Positions 9,639-33,255 are shown, numbered from the stretch's first letter. The stretch: 34,963 nucleotides of DNA from Myxococcota bacterium (GCA_025453525.1 JALOQD010000015.1:1-34963), one strand, 5' to 3'. Notes: generated by a model not told the origin, from the letters alone. Program-made: numbers and translations.

Positions 9639-10792
9639 CAACCGCCCCTCATTCCCACGATGGCCGGCGCCGCTCCACGAGCTCCATCGCTCCGCCCATC
9701 GAGACCGATGATTTGTCTCTCGTGCTTTCGTCGTCGCGGATGATCGTCTGCGCTGGCGCTGGAGGCGTTGGAAAGACCACGATGTCGGCCGCGATCGCCG
9801 TGCGCGCGGCACGCCTCGGACGCAAGACCGTTTGCATCACCATCGATCCGGCCCGCCGCCTGGCCGATGGTCTTGGTGTGCCTGTTTCGGCAAACAGCGG
9901 TTTGACCGACATCACACAGATGCTGGGAGAACCCTTGCGGAAAGGGGGCAGTCTTGCTTTTGGGATGCTCGATCCGCGCCAGGCGTTCGACAGGCTGGTG
10001 CAAACCCGGGCCAGCTCCAAGGAGAAAGCGGCGCGCATTCTGCGCAACCGTCTGTATCGCTACGTTTCGACCTCGCTGTCCGGCGTGCAAGAGTTCATGG
10101 CGCTCACAGAGCTCGCAGCGCTCGCCAACCGTCCGAATATGGATCTCGTGGTGCTCGACACGCCGCCCACGGCCAACTCGCTGGACTTTTTTACAGCCCC
10201 GCAGCGACTGAGCGATGCCTTGGACGGCACGCTGGTGCGCCTGATGCGACGAGCATACGACGGCAACAAGTCCGGCTTTGATCTACTCGGGCGCTCGACC
10301 GCAGCTCTTTTGGGAGCGCTCTCTCGCTTCACCGGACAGGAGCTGCTCTCCGAGATGATGGAGTTCGTCGACGCCCTATCCGACCTGTTCGGCAGCTTCG
10401 AAACCGAAGCCAAAGAAGTCGAACAACTGCTGCGCAGCCCGTTGGTGGGGGTCTTTCTCGTCACCACTCCGGATCGGGCCACCATGCGCGAGTCCAAGGA
10501 GTTGCGGGGAAGACTGGCCCAACTCGGCATGCGCATCGACGCGGTGCTGTTCAACCGTTGCCACCACCCTGTCGTTCCCCTGAGCCCTGCCGAGCTCGAG
10601 CCCGGGCTCGCCGGGGAAATCGACGAGCTGAACCTCGCGTGGAACGCCGAGGCAGCCCGCGAAGCCGACGTCATCCAGGCCACGATGGCCTCCTGGCTCG
10701 GCCTTGCCCAGATCATCCGCTTGCCCCTTTTTCCCGAGACGAGTAGCCGGCTTGGGCTGCTCGACCACATTGGATGTTGTTTATGGTCTTGA
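9635..10792 (+). CDS. ArsA/Get3-family ATPase
   Basis: 385 residues starting in the ATGA overlap with the LpoA-like gene. GAGGVGKTT at 41-49 is the deviant Walker A with the signature Lys of the ArsA/MinD/Get3 group. TIDPARRLADGLG (69-81) and LDTPPTANSLDFF (174-186) are the switch regions of ArsA-like ATPases; the arsenite pump has DTAPTGH at the second site. Only one ATPase domain is present, while E. coli ArsA has two, so it should work as a dimer. No ArsB or ArsR neighbour exists and no arsenite-binding Cys triad is visible, so arsenic export is unlikely. A cytosolic role linked to the co-translated lipoprotein is inferred. It ends 24 bases from the convergent lipoprotein gene. Confidence 0.85.
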   Translation: MTTAPHSHDGRRRSTSSIAPPIETDDLSLVLSSSRMIVCAGAGGVGKTTMSAAIAVRAARLGRKTVCITIDPARRLADGLGVPVSANSGLTDITQMLGEPLRKGGSLAFGMLDPRQAFDRLVQTRASSKEKAARILRNRLYRYVSTSLSGVQEFMALTELAALANRPNMDLVVLDTPPTANSLDFFTAPQRLSDALDGTLVRLMRRAYDGNKSGFDLLGRSTAALLGALSRFTGQELLSEMMEFVDALSDLFGSFETEAKEVEQLLRSPLVGVFLVTTPDRATMRESKELRGRLAQLGMRIDAVLFNRCHHPVVPLSPAELEPGLAGEIDELNLAWNAEAAREADVIQATMASWLGLAQIIRLPLFPETSSRLGLLDHIGCCLWS

Positions 10793-10816: not shown

Positions 10817-11494
10817 CTACAAACGCCTTGGCAACACTCGCTTTCTGCCCGGTCTGCGCGCCGCGACGTCGAACGATTGGTCGAAAACCAGGAGCTGGGG
10901 CGTTTCGGAAAAGGCAATGCGCCGGGTGGGAGAGGAGGGCCGCATTCGAGGTGATTTGCTGGTGTCGAGAGACACCTCGATCTCGTCGGCATGCCGCCCC
11001 TCGAGGAGAACTTGGGCCACTCCGTCCTGATCGGTGCGGCCGACTTCCTTTCCAAGGGCCCGAATCGCCAGCGTCATCGGTGGCTTGGTGCGCACGAGCA
11101 ACACGACCTTTCGCGCAGTGACCCCGCAACGCAGAATCAAGGTCTGGGGCACGAGGGCCAACGAGCCCTCTGGCGAAGCCAGGCGGCGCAACACCACCTT
11201 GGCACGTGGAGAGGAGACCTCGTATCCATGCGGGCACTCGTGGCTCACCGCCGCGGTATCACCCTCGACACCGGCCACGAGAACGAGCAACTGCCCCTGC
11301 GGCCCAGAGACTCCCACCTTCTGCTCGTTGAGGCGCACGAGCGCTCCAGGAACGCCCTGGCCGAGGGTATCGCGAACCTCTATGGCCAGGGGCATTTCGA
11401 AGCGAACCGAAGACGGTGGCGTCGAGCATCCGATCATCCCGACACACCAAAACGCCATGGTCGGTATGGACCAGCCATCCGCGCTCCGGCTCAT
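10817..11494 (-). CDS. Lipoprotein with Cna-B/carboxypeptidase-regulatory-like beta domains, last gene of the CpaF operon
   Basis: 225 residues from ATG 11494, which overlaps the stop of the preceding gene (ATGA). A short hydrophobic segment ends in GMIGC, giving lipid-attached Cys23. Residues 35-110 read like a CarboxypepD_reg or PEGA sandwich (IEVRDTLGQGVPGALVRLNEQKVGVSGPQG is the start of it; only key parts quoted). A second similar unit follows (LAIRALGKEVGRTDQDGVAQVLL). The tail has LLVFDQSFDV and then a basic stretch. I do not know a named family. Location after a secretion-type ATPase suggests an envelope part of the same machine. Confidence 0.7.
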   Translation of the reverse strand: MSRSADGWSIPTMAFWCVGMIGCSTPPSSVRFEMPLAIEVRDTLGQGVPGALVRLNEQKVGVSGPQGQLLVLVAGVEGDTAAVSHECPHGYEVSSPRAKVVLRRLASPEGSLALVPQTLILRCGVTARKVVLLVRTKPPMTLAIRALGKEVGRTDQDGVAQVLLEGRHADEIEVSLDTSKSPRMRPSSPTRRIAFSETPQLLVFDQSFDVAARRPGRKRVLPRRL

Positions 11495-12156
11495 GGCTCG
11501 CGCCGTCCTTCCCCGTGGGCGACATTTCGCAGGATAGACAGCGCCGCAGCGGTCGCGGCGTCGTCCGGCGCGGCTCGATGCCGCTCCTCGTAGAGCAGCA
11601 ATGCATCTTCGAAGCGGCCCTCGGCCACTGCCGAAACGGCCCTCTCGAGAGGCAGCGGCTGCGCAGCTGTTTGACCGTTTCGTATTTCGCTTGTCTGCGT
11701 CGCAACGGGCAAAGGCGGTATCGCTCCGTCGGCCGTCGCGGTGCCCCTGGACTCTGCCTCGAAGGGAAGGCGCTTTGGCCGAGCTGCGGCAGGAAGCGCT
11801 GCGAGCCCGAGGAGCGACAAAAGCGCCGCAAGCCACAGCGCCCACGTTCGAGGAGGAACGACTCGCAAGCGAGCGAACCAGCGACTCGCCGCTCGCCGCC
11901 ACAGAGCCTCTGGGGCGTTCTTCTGCCAGGGCAGCGTGAGCTCGGAGGTTCCACAAGCGCCCCGGTTGGGCTTGAACTCTCCGGTGCTTCGCGTCGGGCC
12001 CTCTTCGCTCGTGCTCACCTTGGGCGAGAGCCTCGTGGCTTCGAACAAAGGCAAGGCAGGAGCCAAGGGCTCGCCGGTTCGAGGATCCACCGCGCGCAGC
12101 CGCGTCAACTCGTCCACGGCAGAGGAGGGGAAGCTGCTCTGGTGTCGCTGTTTCAT
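11491..12156 (-). CDS. Single-pass membrane protein with TPR-like C-terminus, CpaF operon
   Basis: 221 residues from ATG 12156, overlapping the CpaF-like stop by four bases. Residues 1-100 are Pro/Arg/Ser-rich and probably disordered in the cytosol. One membrane helix lies at about 104-124 (TWALWLAALLSLLGLAALPA), preceded by Arg, which fits an N-in orientation. After a Thr/Pro linker, residues 152-190 form a TPR-like helix pair (AVAEGRFEDALLLYEERHRAAPDDAA). It could tether the ATPase to envelope partners. No named family is recognised. Confidence 0.7.
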   Translation of the reverse strand: MKQRHQSSFPSSAVDELTRLRAVDPRTGEPLAPALPLFEATRLSPKVSTSEEGPTRSTGEFKPNRGACGTSELTLPWQKNAPEALWRRAASRWFARLRVVPPRTWALWLAALLSLLGLAALPAAARPKRLPFEAESRGTATADGAIPPLPVATQTSEIRNGQTAAQPLPLERAVSAVAEGRFEDALLLYEERHRAAPDDAATAAALSILRNVAHGEGRREP

Positions 12157-13178
12157 GTTGAGCCTCCACTGGGGCGATGAGGTCGGCAGCACAGCCTGCC
12201 GTCCCTGGCCCGGCAAAAAACCTCGACCAGGCGATAGTCGGACGCTCCCTCCATGGGCTTCAGGCGGCTTATCGACAGGACGTGACGGCTGCCATCGGAT
12301 TGTCGCTCGATGTGCGCGACGAGCTGGACCGCTGCCGCGACCTGGGCCCGCAACGCGTGGAGCGGAATTCCCACGTCCCCCATGAGCGCCATGGTCTCGA
12401 GCCTCCGCAGAGCGCCGACACAACTGCTGGCGTGGACGGTGGTCAGAGAGCCTCCGTGGCCGGTGTTCATGGCCTGCACCAAGTCCAGCGCTTCGGCGCC
12501 GCGCACTTCGCCCACCACGATGCGATCGGGCCTCAGCCGCAAGGTGGCTCGCAGAAGCTCTCGGATGCCCACTTGTCCCTGTCCGCGATCGTCTGCCGGG
12601 CGCGCCTCCAGCGCGACGACATGGGGAAGATCGAGACACAACTCCCGCGTGTCCTCGATGGTCACGATTCGCTCGGCCCGCGGTAAGCAGGCGGCCAGGG
12701 CACTGAGCAGCGACGTCTTTCCCGAGCCCGTGCCGCCGCACACGACGACGTTTTTACGCTGCTCGAGCGCCTGCACGAGATAGCTCGCAGCCGCTAGGCT
12801 GAGGGTCTTTCGCTCCACGAGGCCACCGAGATCCATCTTGGCCTTGGAAAAGCGGCGGATCGCGACGATCGGACCCTGAGCGCAAAGGGGTGGCAGCACG
12901 GCCTCGAGCCTCGAGCCATCTGGCAGCTGCGTTTCGAGAATGGGTCGTTGGTCGTCGAAGGGACGTCCGGCCCATTGCGCTGCTGCCAAGAGGGCCGCCT
13001 CGAGGGTCGCCGAGCTGGAAAAGGCCTCGCTCGCCCGCTCCAGGCAGCCGTGGCGCTCCACCCAAACCTCGGAAGGGCCATTGATGAGGACCTCGCTCAC
13101 AGTGGCATCGCGAAGCAGGACACCGACGGGCTCCCACAGGCGCTCAAGGGCCTCGTTCATGGTTGGAAGCGCGCTCAT
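12153..13178 (-). CDS. CpaF/TadA-type secretion ATPase
   Basis: 341 residues, a compact member of the type II/IV secretion ATPase superfamily. Walker A GGTGSGKTS at 148-156, Asp box IEDTREL at 174-180, Walker B-like VVGEVRG with Glu224, and His box GHGGSLTTVHA at 240-250 are all present, so ATP hydrolysis is expected. The N-terminal domain (VSEVLINGPSEVWVERHG, 27-44) is that of CpaF/TadA and the conserved IRRF (108-111) is present. CpaF normally powers Tad pili with CpaE, TadB, TadC and pilin; none of these is in the window. Instead it sits third in a five-gene ATGA-coupled operon with FHA and TPR proteins. A hexameric motor for an unidentified envelope machine is inferred. Confidence 0.9.
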   Translation of the reverse strand: MSALPTMNEALERLWEPVGVLLRDATVSEVLINGPSEVWVERHGCLERASEAFSSSATLEAALLAAAQWAGRPFDDQRPILETQLPDGSRLEAVLPPLCAQGPIVAIRRFSKAKMDLGGLVERKTLSLAAASYLVQALEQRKNVVVCGGTGSGKTSLLSALAACLPRAERIVTIEDTRELCLDLPHVVALEARPADDRGQGQVGIRELLRATLRLRPDRIVVGEVRGAEALDLVQAMNTGHGGSLTTVHASSCVGALRRLETMALMGDVGIPLHALRAQVAAAVQLVAHIERQSDGSRHVLSISRLKPMEGASDYRLVEVFCRARDGRLCCRPHRPSGGST

Positions 13179-13552
13179 GGGTCTTGCCCGGAAAGCTCTG
13201 AGCGCCCTGGTCGGAGCAACCCGTCGAGAGTGGTGCGCAACTGCCTCAAGTCCTCATCCATGGGACGCAGTGTCAGGAGCTGATCGAGCCTTCTCCTGGC
13301 GTCGCGCAGTCGTCCAGCATGGATCTCTGCCAGGCTCAGCTCCTTGAGCACCACGACCGGGTCTGCTCCTGCAGAAAGCGCTGCCTCGTAAAACAAGCTC
13401 GCCTCGAGCGCATGCCCGCAAGATGCCAGCGAACGCGCGACCGAGAGGTACTCGGCGCTCCCCAGCAGCTGGGGCGGTTCCTCTGCTCTTGCCTGCGCGG
13501 CGCCGCAGCCGCACAAGCCGCAGGCCCAGAGCAGCAGCAGCAAGGGCTTCAT
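13175..13552 (-). CDS. Small TPR lipoprotein, CpaF operon
   Basis: 125 residues from ATG 13552, chosen because AGGAG lies seven bases upstream and the ATG overlaps the FHA gene stop. The signal peptide is rich in Leu and Trp and ends GLCGC, with lipid-attached Cys16. The mature part is helical, with TPR-like pairs: ASCGHALEASLFYEAALSAG, then LAEIHAGRLRDARRRLDQLL and a DEDLRQL end. An ATG six codons earlier is possible but would cover the ribosome-binding site. Its stop overlaps the CpaF-like start by four bases. Such proteins usually assemble or pilot secretion parts at the outer membrane; the role here is inferred from context. Confidence 0.75.
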   Translation of the reverse strand: MKPLLLLLWACGLCGCGAAQARAEEPPQLLGSAEYLSVARSLASCGHALEASLFYEAALSAGADPVVVLKELSLAEIHAGRLRDARRRLDQLLTLRPMDEDLRQLRTTLDGLLRPGRSELSGQDP

Positions 13553-14418
13553 CGAGAGGCTCCTTTCCATTTGAGAGCCTTTTGACGCAGGACCAAGGCC
13601 GCGTCCGGAGAACACCGCTGGACGAGTCGAGCCAGTTCCTCGGCGAGTCGAGCGGCCTGCTCGAGATCCGACGCAGAAAGGGCCGCCCTCAGCGCTGCCA
13701 CCTTTGTCCTGTGACGATTGCGCAAGGCACTGGCACCCTCGTCCAGACTTTGGCAAACCGCCTGCGCGCGGGGATCGCCGAGGTGGCGCAGCGAGGAGCA
13801 AGCCTCGTTGAGCAGCCGCAGGGCCTCGAGTCTCGAATCCCCTGTGGGGTCGGGCCGAAACGCAAGCTCGGCAGCCCGAGAGGTCGAAAGGCGGATCCGT
13901 TCGAGGCAGGCGTCGCGCTGTTTGCAAGGAGCCACCGGAGTCGGACAATGAGGGCTCGAAGCGAGGGCCGCGTCCAGGGCCTCTGTGGAGCTGTCCTCGT
14001 CCGGCTCGAGTTGGGCTCCAGCCAAGACAGCCACGGCTAAGGATGCCGCTGTCAAGCTCGCGGCAATCACCGCGAGTCGGCGCGTTCTCGAGTTCGCTCC
14101 TTTGCCTGCCAAGGCCGAGGACGGATAGGCGACGAGACGCAGCGGCCCGATGACCACGGTGACGCTCGCTCCCAACATGGGCCAAAGAAGGGGGGCGCTC
14201 GCGTGCATGAGCGGATTGGTCAACTTCGGGTAGGGCTCGAGGCGAACGCGCCGGCTGCCTGGCTCGAGCCAAACCGAGCAAAGCTTCCGAGGAACCGCCT
14301 CGTGACACAACCGCAGCTCGCACTCCTGTCCTCGGCCGATGCGCACCACCGGATGATCGAAGCGAAACACGCTGGGCTGCTGGCCCTCCAGGAAGACCTC
14401 GATCGTGACCTCGCCCAT
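13549..14418 (-). CDS. Membrane protein with degenerate N-terminal FHA domain, first gene of the CpaF operon
   Basis: 289 residues from ATG 14418; an in-frame ATG at 14448 exists, but GAGGAG lies between the two. Residues 5-97 are an FHA fold with VVRIGRG (24-30). The phosphothreonine-contacting SxxH appears as PRKL, so phosphopeptide binding may be lost. One membrane helix spans about 113-136 (RRLAVIAASLTAASLAVAVL). The outside part (140-289) has four Cys in the first half (CPTPVAPCKQRDAC and ACSSL) and Ala-rich helices (LRAALSASDLEQAARLAEEL). FHA proteins next to secretion ATPases occur in type VI and Tad-like systems. The topology places the FHA fold beside the ATPase in the cytosol. Confidence 0.75.
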   Translation of the reverse strand: MGEVTIEVFLEGQQPSVFRFDHPVVRIGRGQECELRLCHEAVPRKLCSVWLEPGSRRVRLEPYPKLTNPLMHASAPLLWPMLGASVTVVIGPLRLVAYPSSALAGKGANSRTRRLAVIAASLTAASLAVAVLAGAQLEPDEDSSTEALDAALASSPHCPTPVAPCKQRDACLERIRLSTSRAAELAFRPDPTGDSRLEALRLLNEACSSLRHLGDPRAQAVCQSLDEGASALRNRHRTKVAALRAALSASDLEQAARLAEELARLVQRCSPDAALVLRQKALKWKGASR

Positions 14419-14817: not shown

Positions 14818-14890
14818 AGGACCGTCCCAGGGTCCCAGGGTCCGTCCCAGGGTCCCCAGGGTCCCCGTCCAGGCTCCCAGGCTCCCGCTG
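14818..14890. repeat. Low-complexity tandem repeat of CCCAGGGTC type
   Basis: Units of TCCCAGGG with GTCC or GTCCCC spacers repeat about six times and then degrade into CCAGGCTCCCAGGCTCCCG. It joins the duplicated acyltransferase end on the left to the apbE remnant on the right, so it may mark a rearrangement junction. Confidence 0.7.
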
Positions 14891-16538: not shown

Positions 16539-17546
16539 CTATCCGCTCCACACTGGACGGATGATGGGCGGCTTGAACGTCCCTTCCGGAAACGCGACGT
16601 CCTTGGCACCCGCGAGATAGGCGATGGACGCGATTCGATGCGCCTTCTCAATCTCGCGGTTCTCCGCGATGACCGCCTTTCGCACCGCGTCGTCGCTGGC
16701 ATGAACTCTGGGCTTGGGCGTCTTCTTCCGCGGCTGCTCGGGCCGGGCTCTGGGGTCGAGCGCAAACAGCTCGTCCACGGTCATGGGCCTGCGGCCCGCG
16801 TCTTTGAGGGCCTTGGCCTGGGCGGCCTCGAGGTCTTGGATCTGCCTTCGAAAGAACGTCTGTCGTTGCTCTTGCGTCATGGCTTGCATGCCAGGCAGGG
16901 GATGTATCTCGAGCTCGAGCCAACGCAGGTACTTCTTGGGGTGGTGAGTCTTGCGCTTCCATCCACCGGCCTCGCCAAAGGCGGTCCAGTCGATGCCCCA
17001 GTATCGCTGCGGGTGACCGAGAGCTTGGGCCCGGTAGGTGTTGAACAAGTGGCTCTGGCGAGTGCCAGCCACGAGCCCGTCCTTGACCGCGTTGGTCATG
17101 CCGTACAGCACGAGGTGCTCGGCTCTCTTGTCGTCGGCGATCTCGGTGATGCGTGGCCGGCCAGCGAACATGTGACCTTCGCGTTTCATGCGTTGATTGA
17201 TGCCAAGCGCGATGGGGCTGAAGGCGTTGCGCAGGAAGCCCGGGACCCACACGATCTGCTGTCGGGTGACCGATAGCGTGACGTGAAGATGGTTCGCGTT
17301 GAGCTCCACGCTGTGGATGCGCACCGGAGTGAGCTCTTGTGCCCGGGCAAAGGCAAACCCGACGATATTGATGAGGCTGGGCTCAGGCACGAGCTCGTTG
17401 CTTTCGTCGAGCGCCTCGACCGGGCAGGCCTGGTGGAGCAGGGCGTTGTCGCGCCGGTGGTCTGGGCGAAAGCTATACTCCCGATCCACGAGCGTGTGCG
17501 TCAGCTCGTACACGACCCCGGGTTTGAGGATGCGGATGTCGCTCAT
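16539..17546 (-). CDS. HUH (Y1, IS200/RAYT-like) transposase with long C-terminal extension
   Basis: 335 residues from ATG 17546. The HUH motif is NANHLHVTL (His86, His88), and the probable catalytic Tyr148 is in LVLYGMTNAVKDGLV, which parallels the Y..NPV..GLV motif of REP-associated Tyr transposases. It begins MSDIRILKPGVVYELTHTLV, the usual first strand. After Tyr148 it continues for about 190 residues, with a Trp-rich segment and a basic Pro/Lys stretch (RKKTPKPRVHASDD), much longer than IS200 TnpA at about 150 residues. All core residues are present, so it may be active. Tandem and inverted repeats lie just upstream (17659-17732). Confidence 0.8.
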   Translation of the reverse strand: MSDIRILKPGVVYELTHTLVDREYSFRPDHRRDNALLHQACPVEALDESNELVPEPSLINIVGFAFARAQELTPVRIHSVELNANHLHVTLSVTRQQIVWVPGFLRNAFSPIALGINQRMKREGHMFAGRPRITEIADDKRAEHLVLYGMTNAVKDGLVAGTRQSHLFNTYRAQALGHPQRYWGIDWTAFGEAGGWKRKTHHPKKYLRWLELEIHPLPGMQAMTQEQRQTFFRRQIQDLEAAQAKALKDAGRRPMTVDELFALDPRARPEQPRKKTPKPRVHASDDAVRKAVIAENREIEKAHRIASIAYLAGAKDVAFPEGTFKPPIIRPVWSG

Positions 17547-17658
17547 CGCAAAAGGGGTATCGGCCGTTTGGAGCAGGAGTTTCCTGAAATCGACGAGCGC
17601 CAGGATTGGCGAGGGCGATCGCGTATGCGACTGTGCATCATGCGATCGGGCATGTGTC

Positions 17659-17698
17659 GGGTGCACCAAGGGGTCAGCGGGTGCACCTATTGGTCAGG
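17659..17698. repeat. Two tandem 20-bp units upstream of the HUH transposase
   Basis: GGGTGCACCAAGGGGTCAGC (17659-17678) is followed by GGGTGCACCTATTGGTCAGG (17679-17698). They differ at four positions. They lie 113 bases upstream of the transposase start and could be recognition sites. Confidence 0.75.
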
Positions 17699-32826: not shown

Positions 32827-33255
32827 ATGAAGAATCGACCTCTCGTGGTTTTCCTGTTTTTGAGTATCATTTCCCTTCTGATCGCAGGGTGTTACATCGC
32901 AACCTCAGCCGATGGAAACTCCAGGCACCGGGCAAGGCATCGCGACCGAGGTCGCGAACAAGCCGAGCATAGCGACGAAGGAGACAACCGCCGCGAAGAG
33001 AGAGACAACCGCCGCGAAAAGAAACCGCAGCAAGAGAAGCAGAAGCAAGAGCGAGAGCAAGAGCCAAGCAAGCAGAAGCAAGAGAAGCAGAAGCAAGAGA
33101 AGCAGAAGCAAGAGAAGCGAGAGCAGCAAGAGCAGCAAGAGAAGCAGAAGCAAGAGAAGCAGAAGCAAGAGAAGCAAGAGAAGCAGAAGCAAGCACCGGA
33201 TACGGATACAGATACGGAGACGGAGTCGGTGACACCACCGCCATTATCCTACTGA
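32827..33255 (+). CDS. Lipoprotein made mostly of Lys/Gln/Glu repeats
   Basis: 142 residues with a perfect AGGAGG six bases before the ATG. The signal peptide ends LLIAGC (Cys22). Residues 30-65 are charged (HRARHRDRGREQAEH and two DNRRE units). Residues 66-122 are almost only Lys, Gln and Glu, built from KQKQE and close variants. The end is DTDTDTETESV then TPPPLSY. It has no globular domain. A lipid-anchored, highly charged rod or helix could reach across the periplasm or bind other surface components. The Asp/Thr stretch resembles the linkers of other lipoproteins in the window. Confidence 0.75.
   Translation: MKNRPLVVFLFLSIISLLIAGCYIATSADGNSRHRARHRDRGREQAEHSDEGDNRREERDNRREKKPQQEKQKQEREQEPSKQKQEKQKQEKQKQEKREQQEQQEKQKQEKQKQEKQEKQKQAPDTDTDTETESVTPPPLSY
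33028..33194. repeat. Coding tandem repeat of AAGCAGAAGCAAGAG units
   Basis: The 15-base unit and 9- or 12-base part-units (AAGCAAGAG, GAGCAGCAAGAG) repeat without frame change through the KQKQE region of the lipoprotein gene. All length differences are multiples of three. Such DNA changes length easily by slippage. Confidence 0.85.

Follow-up and report, generated by a model that had tools for sequence, protein, structure and literature searches.

A stretch of 34,963 nucleotides from a Myxococcota bacterium (GCA_025453525.1 JALOQD010000015.1:1-34963; the whole stretch is hereafter called the window) carries, on its minus strand, a five-gene operon built around a CpaF/TadA-type ATPase. The five genes almost certainly form a module associated with the Tad pilus system, and we consider it likely that the operon supplies the accessory half of a Tad (type IVc, Kil-like) pilus machine with two motors, the genes for which are distributed over at least four loci in the window's taxonomic order. 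The association with the Tad system rests on comparison: on gene order, on co-occurrence, and on the remaining Tad parts of the genome. The genes (m1 to m5) and their junctions are as follows:

13549–14418, minus strand: m1 (P0001), 289 amino acids (aa), a protein with a degenerate FHA domain, a single transmembrane (TM) segment, and a helical periplasmic part
13175–13552, minus strand: m2 (P0002), 125 aa, a TPR lipoprotein
12153–13178, minus strand: m3 (P0003), 341 aa, a second CpaF/TadA-type ATPase without N-terminal domains 0 and 1 (NTD0/NTD1)
11491–12156, minus strand: m4 (P0004), 221 aa, a protein with a cytoplasmic tail, a single TM segment, and a periplasmic TPR-like part
10817–11494, minus strand: m5 (P0005), 225 aa, a lipoprotein with two tandem CnaB/transthyretin-like beta-sandwich domains
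13549–13552, minus strand: ATGA junction m1/m2
13175–13178, minus strand: ATGA junction m2/m3
12153–12156, minus strand: ATGA junction m3/m4
11491–11494, minus strand: ATGA junction m4/m5

All five frames are open, and the coordinates and four ATGA overlaps agree with those of a first-pass annotation of this DNA. Across the window and its relatives in the order, overlaps of 4 bases (ATGA or GTGA) were found at 31 of 38 measurable junctions; because of this, and because the five families reappear there in an unchanged order, the operon junctions stand above chance. They do not imply, as had been proposed, that the five proteins are made in a fixed ratio, since the ATGA overlap is the commonest operon junction.

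The central protein, P0003, is a T2SSE/CpaF-type ATPase (Pfam PF00437, T2SSE, E = 2.9e-49) whose best PDB match is Caulobacter CpaF (E = 3e-67). Its Walker A, Walker B, and His boxes are whole, which bears out the earlier description of intact motor motifs. It scores 280 bits against NCBIfam TIGR03819, under that family's cut-off of 373, and is 47% identical to the TadA of its own genome. P0003 begins at NTD2, with the PDB match starting at CpaF residue 150; NTD0, the three-helix motif of NTD1, and the FHA domain are missing from m3, the last being carried by the partner TadA. The VirB11/TrbB ATPases of type IV secretion are likewise short and CpaF-like, and their profiles score P0003 at 221 and 214 bits, but both scores lie under the equivalog cut-offs and the genes mapped around m3 are those of Tad, not of VirB or Trb; we therefore rejected a type IV secretion identity on the family cut-offs.

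We compared residues in an alignment of 51 m3 sequences (one from Rhizobium) with 62 TadA/CpaF sequences, the numbering being checked on PDB sequences. No variation occurs, among the 51 m3 proteins or in TadA, at the Walker A Lys, the two acidic residues (Glu and Asp) of the IED motif, the Walker B Glu, or the histidines of the His box. P0003 thus resembles Caulobacter crescentus CpaF (TadA; PDB 8rjf/8rkd/9e24) in ATPase family and catalytic motifs, but it differs in lacking NTD0/NTD1 and the hinge glycines and in having Arg in place of the Central Loop residue E331. Gly occupies the hinge positions G147 and G149 in 60 and 61 of the 62 TadA sequences, while at these positions it is not among the six commonest residues of m3 and the window has Glu/Glu. 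E331 is Glu in 60 of 62 TadA versus Arg or Lys in 43 of 51 m3. The NTD1 motif, the hinge glycines, and E331, all features of the canonical motor, are accordingly not those of m3, and D208, which is Asp in 62 of 62 TadA, is kept in only 23 of 51 m3, including the window's. Mutating G147/G149, D208, or E331 stops the pilus function of Caulobacter CpaF, and two of these residues have been modelled against the platform (PMC11300603).

In an IQ-TREE phylogeny of 71 ATPases, a branch with 100/100 support separates canonical CpaF/TadA (from Myxococcota, Rhizobium, Chloroflexi, Moraxella, and Priestia) from m3 together with a second ATPase of Rhizobium. This places m3 on the wrong side for a canonical CpaF/TadA orthologue, and the tree rules out recent duplication of the local TadA as its source. 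Judged by its sequence, m3 is an old CpaF paralogue with intact catalytic residues and altered contact residues. The long branch of the window's m3 would suit a decaying, functionless remnant of a split Tad locus, but catalytic residues and gene order are kept over the order and the class, the five frames are open, and the overlaps are conserved, so that we find this explanation barely conceivable.

The rest of the Tad machine is encoded elsewhere in the genome. One contig (C243) holds an FHA-CpaF of 511 aa together with TadB and TadC; a second (C348) holds a Flp-like pilin, a CpaA-like peptidase, two TadE-type genes, a TadG-type gene, and CpaB; and a third (C310) starts inside a Tad-type secretin, of which the first 192 residues are present at the contig edge. 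CpaB scores 137 bits against TIGR03177 (cut-off 71) and TadE is above the Pfam cut-off, while the Flp-like pilin falls below the Pfam Flp_Fap cut-off and the CpaA-like peptidase was assigned by sequence. The genome therefore has the parts that define a Tad system: a motor with its TadB/TadC platform; pilin, peptidase, TadE, TadG, and CpaB; and the N-terminus of a secretin. Because these lie on C243, C348, and C310 besides the operon contig, the Tad machine is present but in at least four pieces in this assembly. The first-pass annotation had reported the other Tad parts as missing, which holds for the window and fails for the genome; the tadB/tadC-like genes that it had suggested looking for are those on C243.

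Nor is the ATPase solitary, as had been thought, because the genome's Tad core on C243 has a CpaF of its own, fused to FHA. A complete Tad locus lacking its own CpaF, which would have made P0003 its missing motor, was not what we found; the core's FHA-CpaF rules out P0003 as the strayed sole CpaF of a Tad locus and makes the window's ATPase a second one rather than a strayed first. The genome's other PF00437 matches (C43, C231, C53, C221, C27, C32, and C302) were set aside as GspE/PilB/PilT-type and unrelated to the module, a call made by score for all seven contigs, with C53, C221, and C43 also read.

The same arrangement recurs within the order. An orthologue of P0003 (49–60% identity) was found in 12 of 13 relatives, and the five-gene order is the same in those 12 as far as contig ends permit. 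All 12 also have a further CpaF elsewhere, with a longer frame (at least 450 residues) and lower identity, and the Tad secretin and TadE-type genes occur in the same 12 relatives as m3 and TadA. In the thirteenth genome (G001, 71% complete), m3, TadA, the Tad secretin, and TadE-type genes were all unfound. Unrelated genes flank the m3 and TadA loci on both sides in these relatives, and TadC lies 1.2–2.1 kb upstream of m3 in none of the 13 loci of the order, four of whose contigs hold less than 2.3 kb upstream.

Scattering of this kind departs from the general pattern, since Tad genes almost always form one locus (PMC6711533), the Kil clusters of Myxococcus being the noted exception (PMC8460266). 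The Kil system of Myxococcus xanthus (KilF etc.), a Tad-like predation pilus, likewise has an FHA-fused TadA, an FHA-rich gene set, and Tad genes over separate loci (PMC8460266); here, the TadA has an N-terminal FHA domain and m1 has an FHA fold. Kil has been described with a single ATPase and without TadD or TadG (PMC8460266), and the present system differs from it by the second ATPase, a TadD-like TPR lipoprotein, and a TadG-type gene.

Outside the order, the module is part of a Tad locus. We searched the phylum for the P0005 family, which gave matches in 107 of 379 genomes, many of them weak or partial, and mapped sixty flanking regions in six frames; synteny outside the order rests on these six-frame searches. 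The class and family f26 are called Polyangia and Bradymonadia on our own reading rather than from stated taxonomy. In the class outside the order, the locus typically runs on one strand as a TadE-like gene, TadG, TadE, an unknown gene, the secretin, FHA-TadA, TadB, TadC, and m1-m2-m3-m4-m5, and TadC lies 1.2–2.1 kb upstream of m3 on the same strand in 25 of the 26 mapped class loci. Of 153 class genomes sampled, 67 have m3 and 86 do not; a separate TadA was found in at least 64 of the 67, while any CpaF-like match at all was found in at most 27 of the 86 (Fisher P = 2e-17). The unit thus corresponds to the distal part of the class Tad locus and tracks the Tad core, contrary to the earlier suggestion that it is not a pilus.

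Variants of the class locus bear on its parts. In family f2 the m5 gene adjoins TadE/TadG pilin genes and does not stand behind m4 (L120, L124, L128, L133, L137-L139, L156, L158, and L160). Two large class genomes (G190 and G368) have extra Tad-like loci (L106, L107, L109, and L110) with TadB, TadC, m4- and m5-like genes, and TadE/TadG, in which TadA, m3, and the secretin were undetected by these profiles; the extra loci may depend on the main locus for their motors.

A second ATPase is also found in two other lineages. Bradymonadia-like genomes (f26) have a shorter cluster of m3, a pseudokinase/TM protein, and m5, the middle protein being represented by a 666-aa product (L146:11776-13776) in the m4 position with a partial kinase domain, below the Pfam cut-off, and a TM segment. 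Five of the nine f26 genomes with m3 have TadA about 15–18 kb away from it; in a sixth genome TadA lies 11 kb from m5 on a contig that ends before m3; and m3 and TadA are far apart in G021 and on different contigs in three genomes. Plasmids of Rhizobium (R. etli CFN42 p42e, R. leguminosarum, and R. acidisoli; 88 records with identity of ≥90%) have the order Flp, CpaA, TadE/TadG, Tad, TadE, an unknown gene, CpaB, TadA, TadB, TadC, and an FHA/TM protein; next to Flp and divergent from it is a second ATPase that lacks the NTDs. On p42e this second ATPase occupies about 185925–186881 of NC_007765.1. Searches with these profiles did not find m2, m4, or m5 in the Rhizobium Tad loci, and we infer that the shared minimum is TadA, TadB, TadC, an FHA/TM protein, and the second ATPase.

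These distributions bear directly on the earlier view of an ATP-driven envelope machine that stands by itself and is no pilus. It could appeal to the five genes standing alone, in a kept order, within the window's order, and to the reduced m3-m4-m5 cluster of Bradymonadia-like genomes, which is not directly beside TadA; set against it are the operon's linkage to Tad in the class, the co-occurrence, the joint absence in G001, and the Rhizobium Tad loci. Class-wide synteny and co-occurrence led us to reject a solitary machine, and we regard this explanation as highly improbable.

The partner proteins fit an assembly that spans the envelope. We built AlphaFold models of P0001 and P0005 from alignments. 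The P0001 model (mean pLDDT, the model's confidence score, 84) has an FHA beta-sandwich (residues ~1–100), a TM helix, and a helical periplasmic part, and its leading PDB matches are FHA domains, including the cytoplasmic domains of YscD/PscD from type III secretion. In the m1 family the FHA Gly-Arg is kept while the phosphothreonine pocket has its Ser/His and its Asn-Gly replaced; one class relative (L141) has a recognisable FHA domain at m1. The type III inner-ring protein SctD/YscD is similar to m1 in its degenerate FHA domain, TM segment, and periplasmic part, and m1 relatives score to Yop-YscD_cpl, but the model gives m1 helices in its periplasmic part, and we read this as a one-domain resemblance, not membership. 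P0002 has a weak TPR profile match and a conserved lipobox Cys, and class loci have longer TPR lipoproteins in its place, close behind TadC, where TadD stands in canonical Tad loci. P0004 combines one weak TPR with a hydrophobic TM segment, and some of its class counterparts bear an N-terminal FHA domain. The P0005 model (mean pLDDT 87) has two tandem beta-sandwiches behind a lipobox, with Foldseek matches to domains of the immunoglobulin and CnaB types. The models and profiles therefore uphold the initial descriptions of a degenerate FHA membrane protein, a TPR lipoprotein, a TPR membrane protein, and a beta-domain lipoprotein, with parts predicted for the cytosol, the inner membrane, and the periplasm or outer membrane.

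We propose a mechanism in which the FHA-CpaF of C243, seated on TadB/TadC, would drive pilus extension, and P0003 would be a second CpaF-type motor, presumably hexameric, at the same pilus base. On balance, gene linkage and co-occurrence favour the m3 motor acting on the same pilus. P0003 would probably engage the base through a different surface than CpaF does, because the N-terminal domains and the acidic Central Loop residue that bring CpaF into contact with the platform are missing from it; m1, whose gene directly follows TadC in the class, and m4 would be its membrane adaptors, while m2 (TadD-like) and m5 (beta-sandwich) would form the periplasmic or outer-membrane end near the secretin. 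P0003 might then power a separate step, for which retraction or high-force pulling is the leading candidate, as with PilT/PilU of type IVa pili. The likeness to that pair is in a second motor paralogue for the same pilus family, proposed as antagonist or booster; P0003 differs by belonging to the CpaF/VirB11-like branch, and it scores 50 bits against the PilT family TIGR01420 (cut-off 319). A role for m3 in retraction or force specifically is possible but doubtful.

Several observations weigh against this proposal. Caulobacter CpaF alone extends and retracts its pilus, and in the published view, which leaves open how general this is across the family, Tad pili run on one bifunctional ATPase (PMC11300603, PMC12019362); a second motor is therefore not needed for retraction. 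The platform-contact residues are lost in m3, so that it could skip TadB/TadC and drive something else. The TrbB root of the tree is on a long branch and untrustworthy, and m3 may be paraphyletic. A TadA match was unfound in two genomes with m3, G392 and G399 (88% complete), and in G356 (L114) the genes m1 to m5 have no Tad core within 10 kb. Among the class loci outside the order, L114 alone has the module separated from TadC, perhaps through an independent split.

The changed contact residues are also the starting point for a different role, in which m3 belongs to the Tad machine but works off the TadB/TadC platform and energises a subassembly of m1, m2, m4, and m5, for example one that loads or ejects tip or minor pilins or an effector, or that gates the secretin. 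The candidate membrane adaptors m1 and m4, the place of m5 beside TadE/TadG pilin genes in f2, and the separate m3-m4-m5 cluster of Bradymonadia-like genomes are consistent with such a role. It is harder to square with Rhizobium, where the ATPase and the FHA/TM protein occur without m2, m4, and m5 by these profiles, so that the ATPase is independent of them, or with the mapped loci, in which no PilC-like platform besides TadB/TadC is found beside m3. We think this role somewhat unlikely.

The abundance of FHA domains, in TadA, m1, and the class m4, and the pseudokinase in the m4 position of Bradymonadia-like genomes point instead to regulation: m3 could be a partner of TadA that sets direction or switches the pilus on and off, through mixed hexamers or competition for the base and via FHA phospho-signalling, as in the picture of PilU with PilT. 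Mixed hexamers have been discussed for the superfamily (PMC6711533), and at 47% identity to the genome's own TadA the core of P0003 is alike enough for shared interfaces. The catalytic residues are invariant in 51 of 51 m3, however, so m3 is no dead subunit, and the m1 FHA domain is without the phosphothreonine-pocket Ser/His; regulation of this kind seems to us quite unlikely.

With the two-motor pilus as our preferred explanation, we tentatively extend it to the class, Bradymonadia-like bacteria, and some Rhizobium: in all three, at somewhat less than an even chance, an ancient paralogue of CpaF, its Central Loop reversed in charge and its seat provided by an FHA/TM adaptor, would serve as a dedicated antagonistic or force motor of the Tad pilus. 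If this is true, the rule of one motor per Tad pilus does not hold generally. Searches of a limited set of papers did not find a published Tad locus with two CpaF proteins, which is not proof of absence. A second CpaF-type ATPase bears on how the Tad pilus reverses: being conserved, catalytically intact, and altered in its platform loops, it offers a naturally occurring case where extension may be uncoupled from retraction, with a related one in tractable Rhizobium. The scattering of the Tad genes means that surveys requiring a contiguous locus would miss such systems.

Other features of the window surround the operon. A gene for an ArsA-type anion-transporting ATPase (9740–10792; Pfam PF02374, E = 4e-27) is convergent with the last operon gene, and upstream of the operon lies a GC-rich 21-base tandem repeat of 3.1 copies (14822–14885). 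An open reading frame at 16539–17669 resembles a REP-associated/IS200-type transposase by eye, with no Pfam match at E ≤ 0.001. At 33029–33185, an imperfect AGCAAGAGA repeat array has a 57-base period and 2.6 copies.

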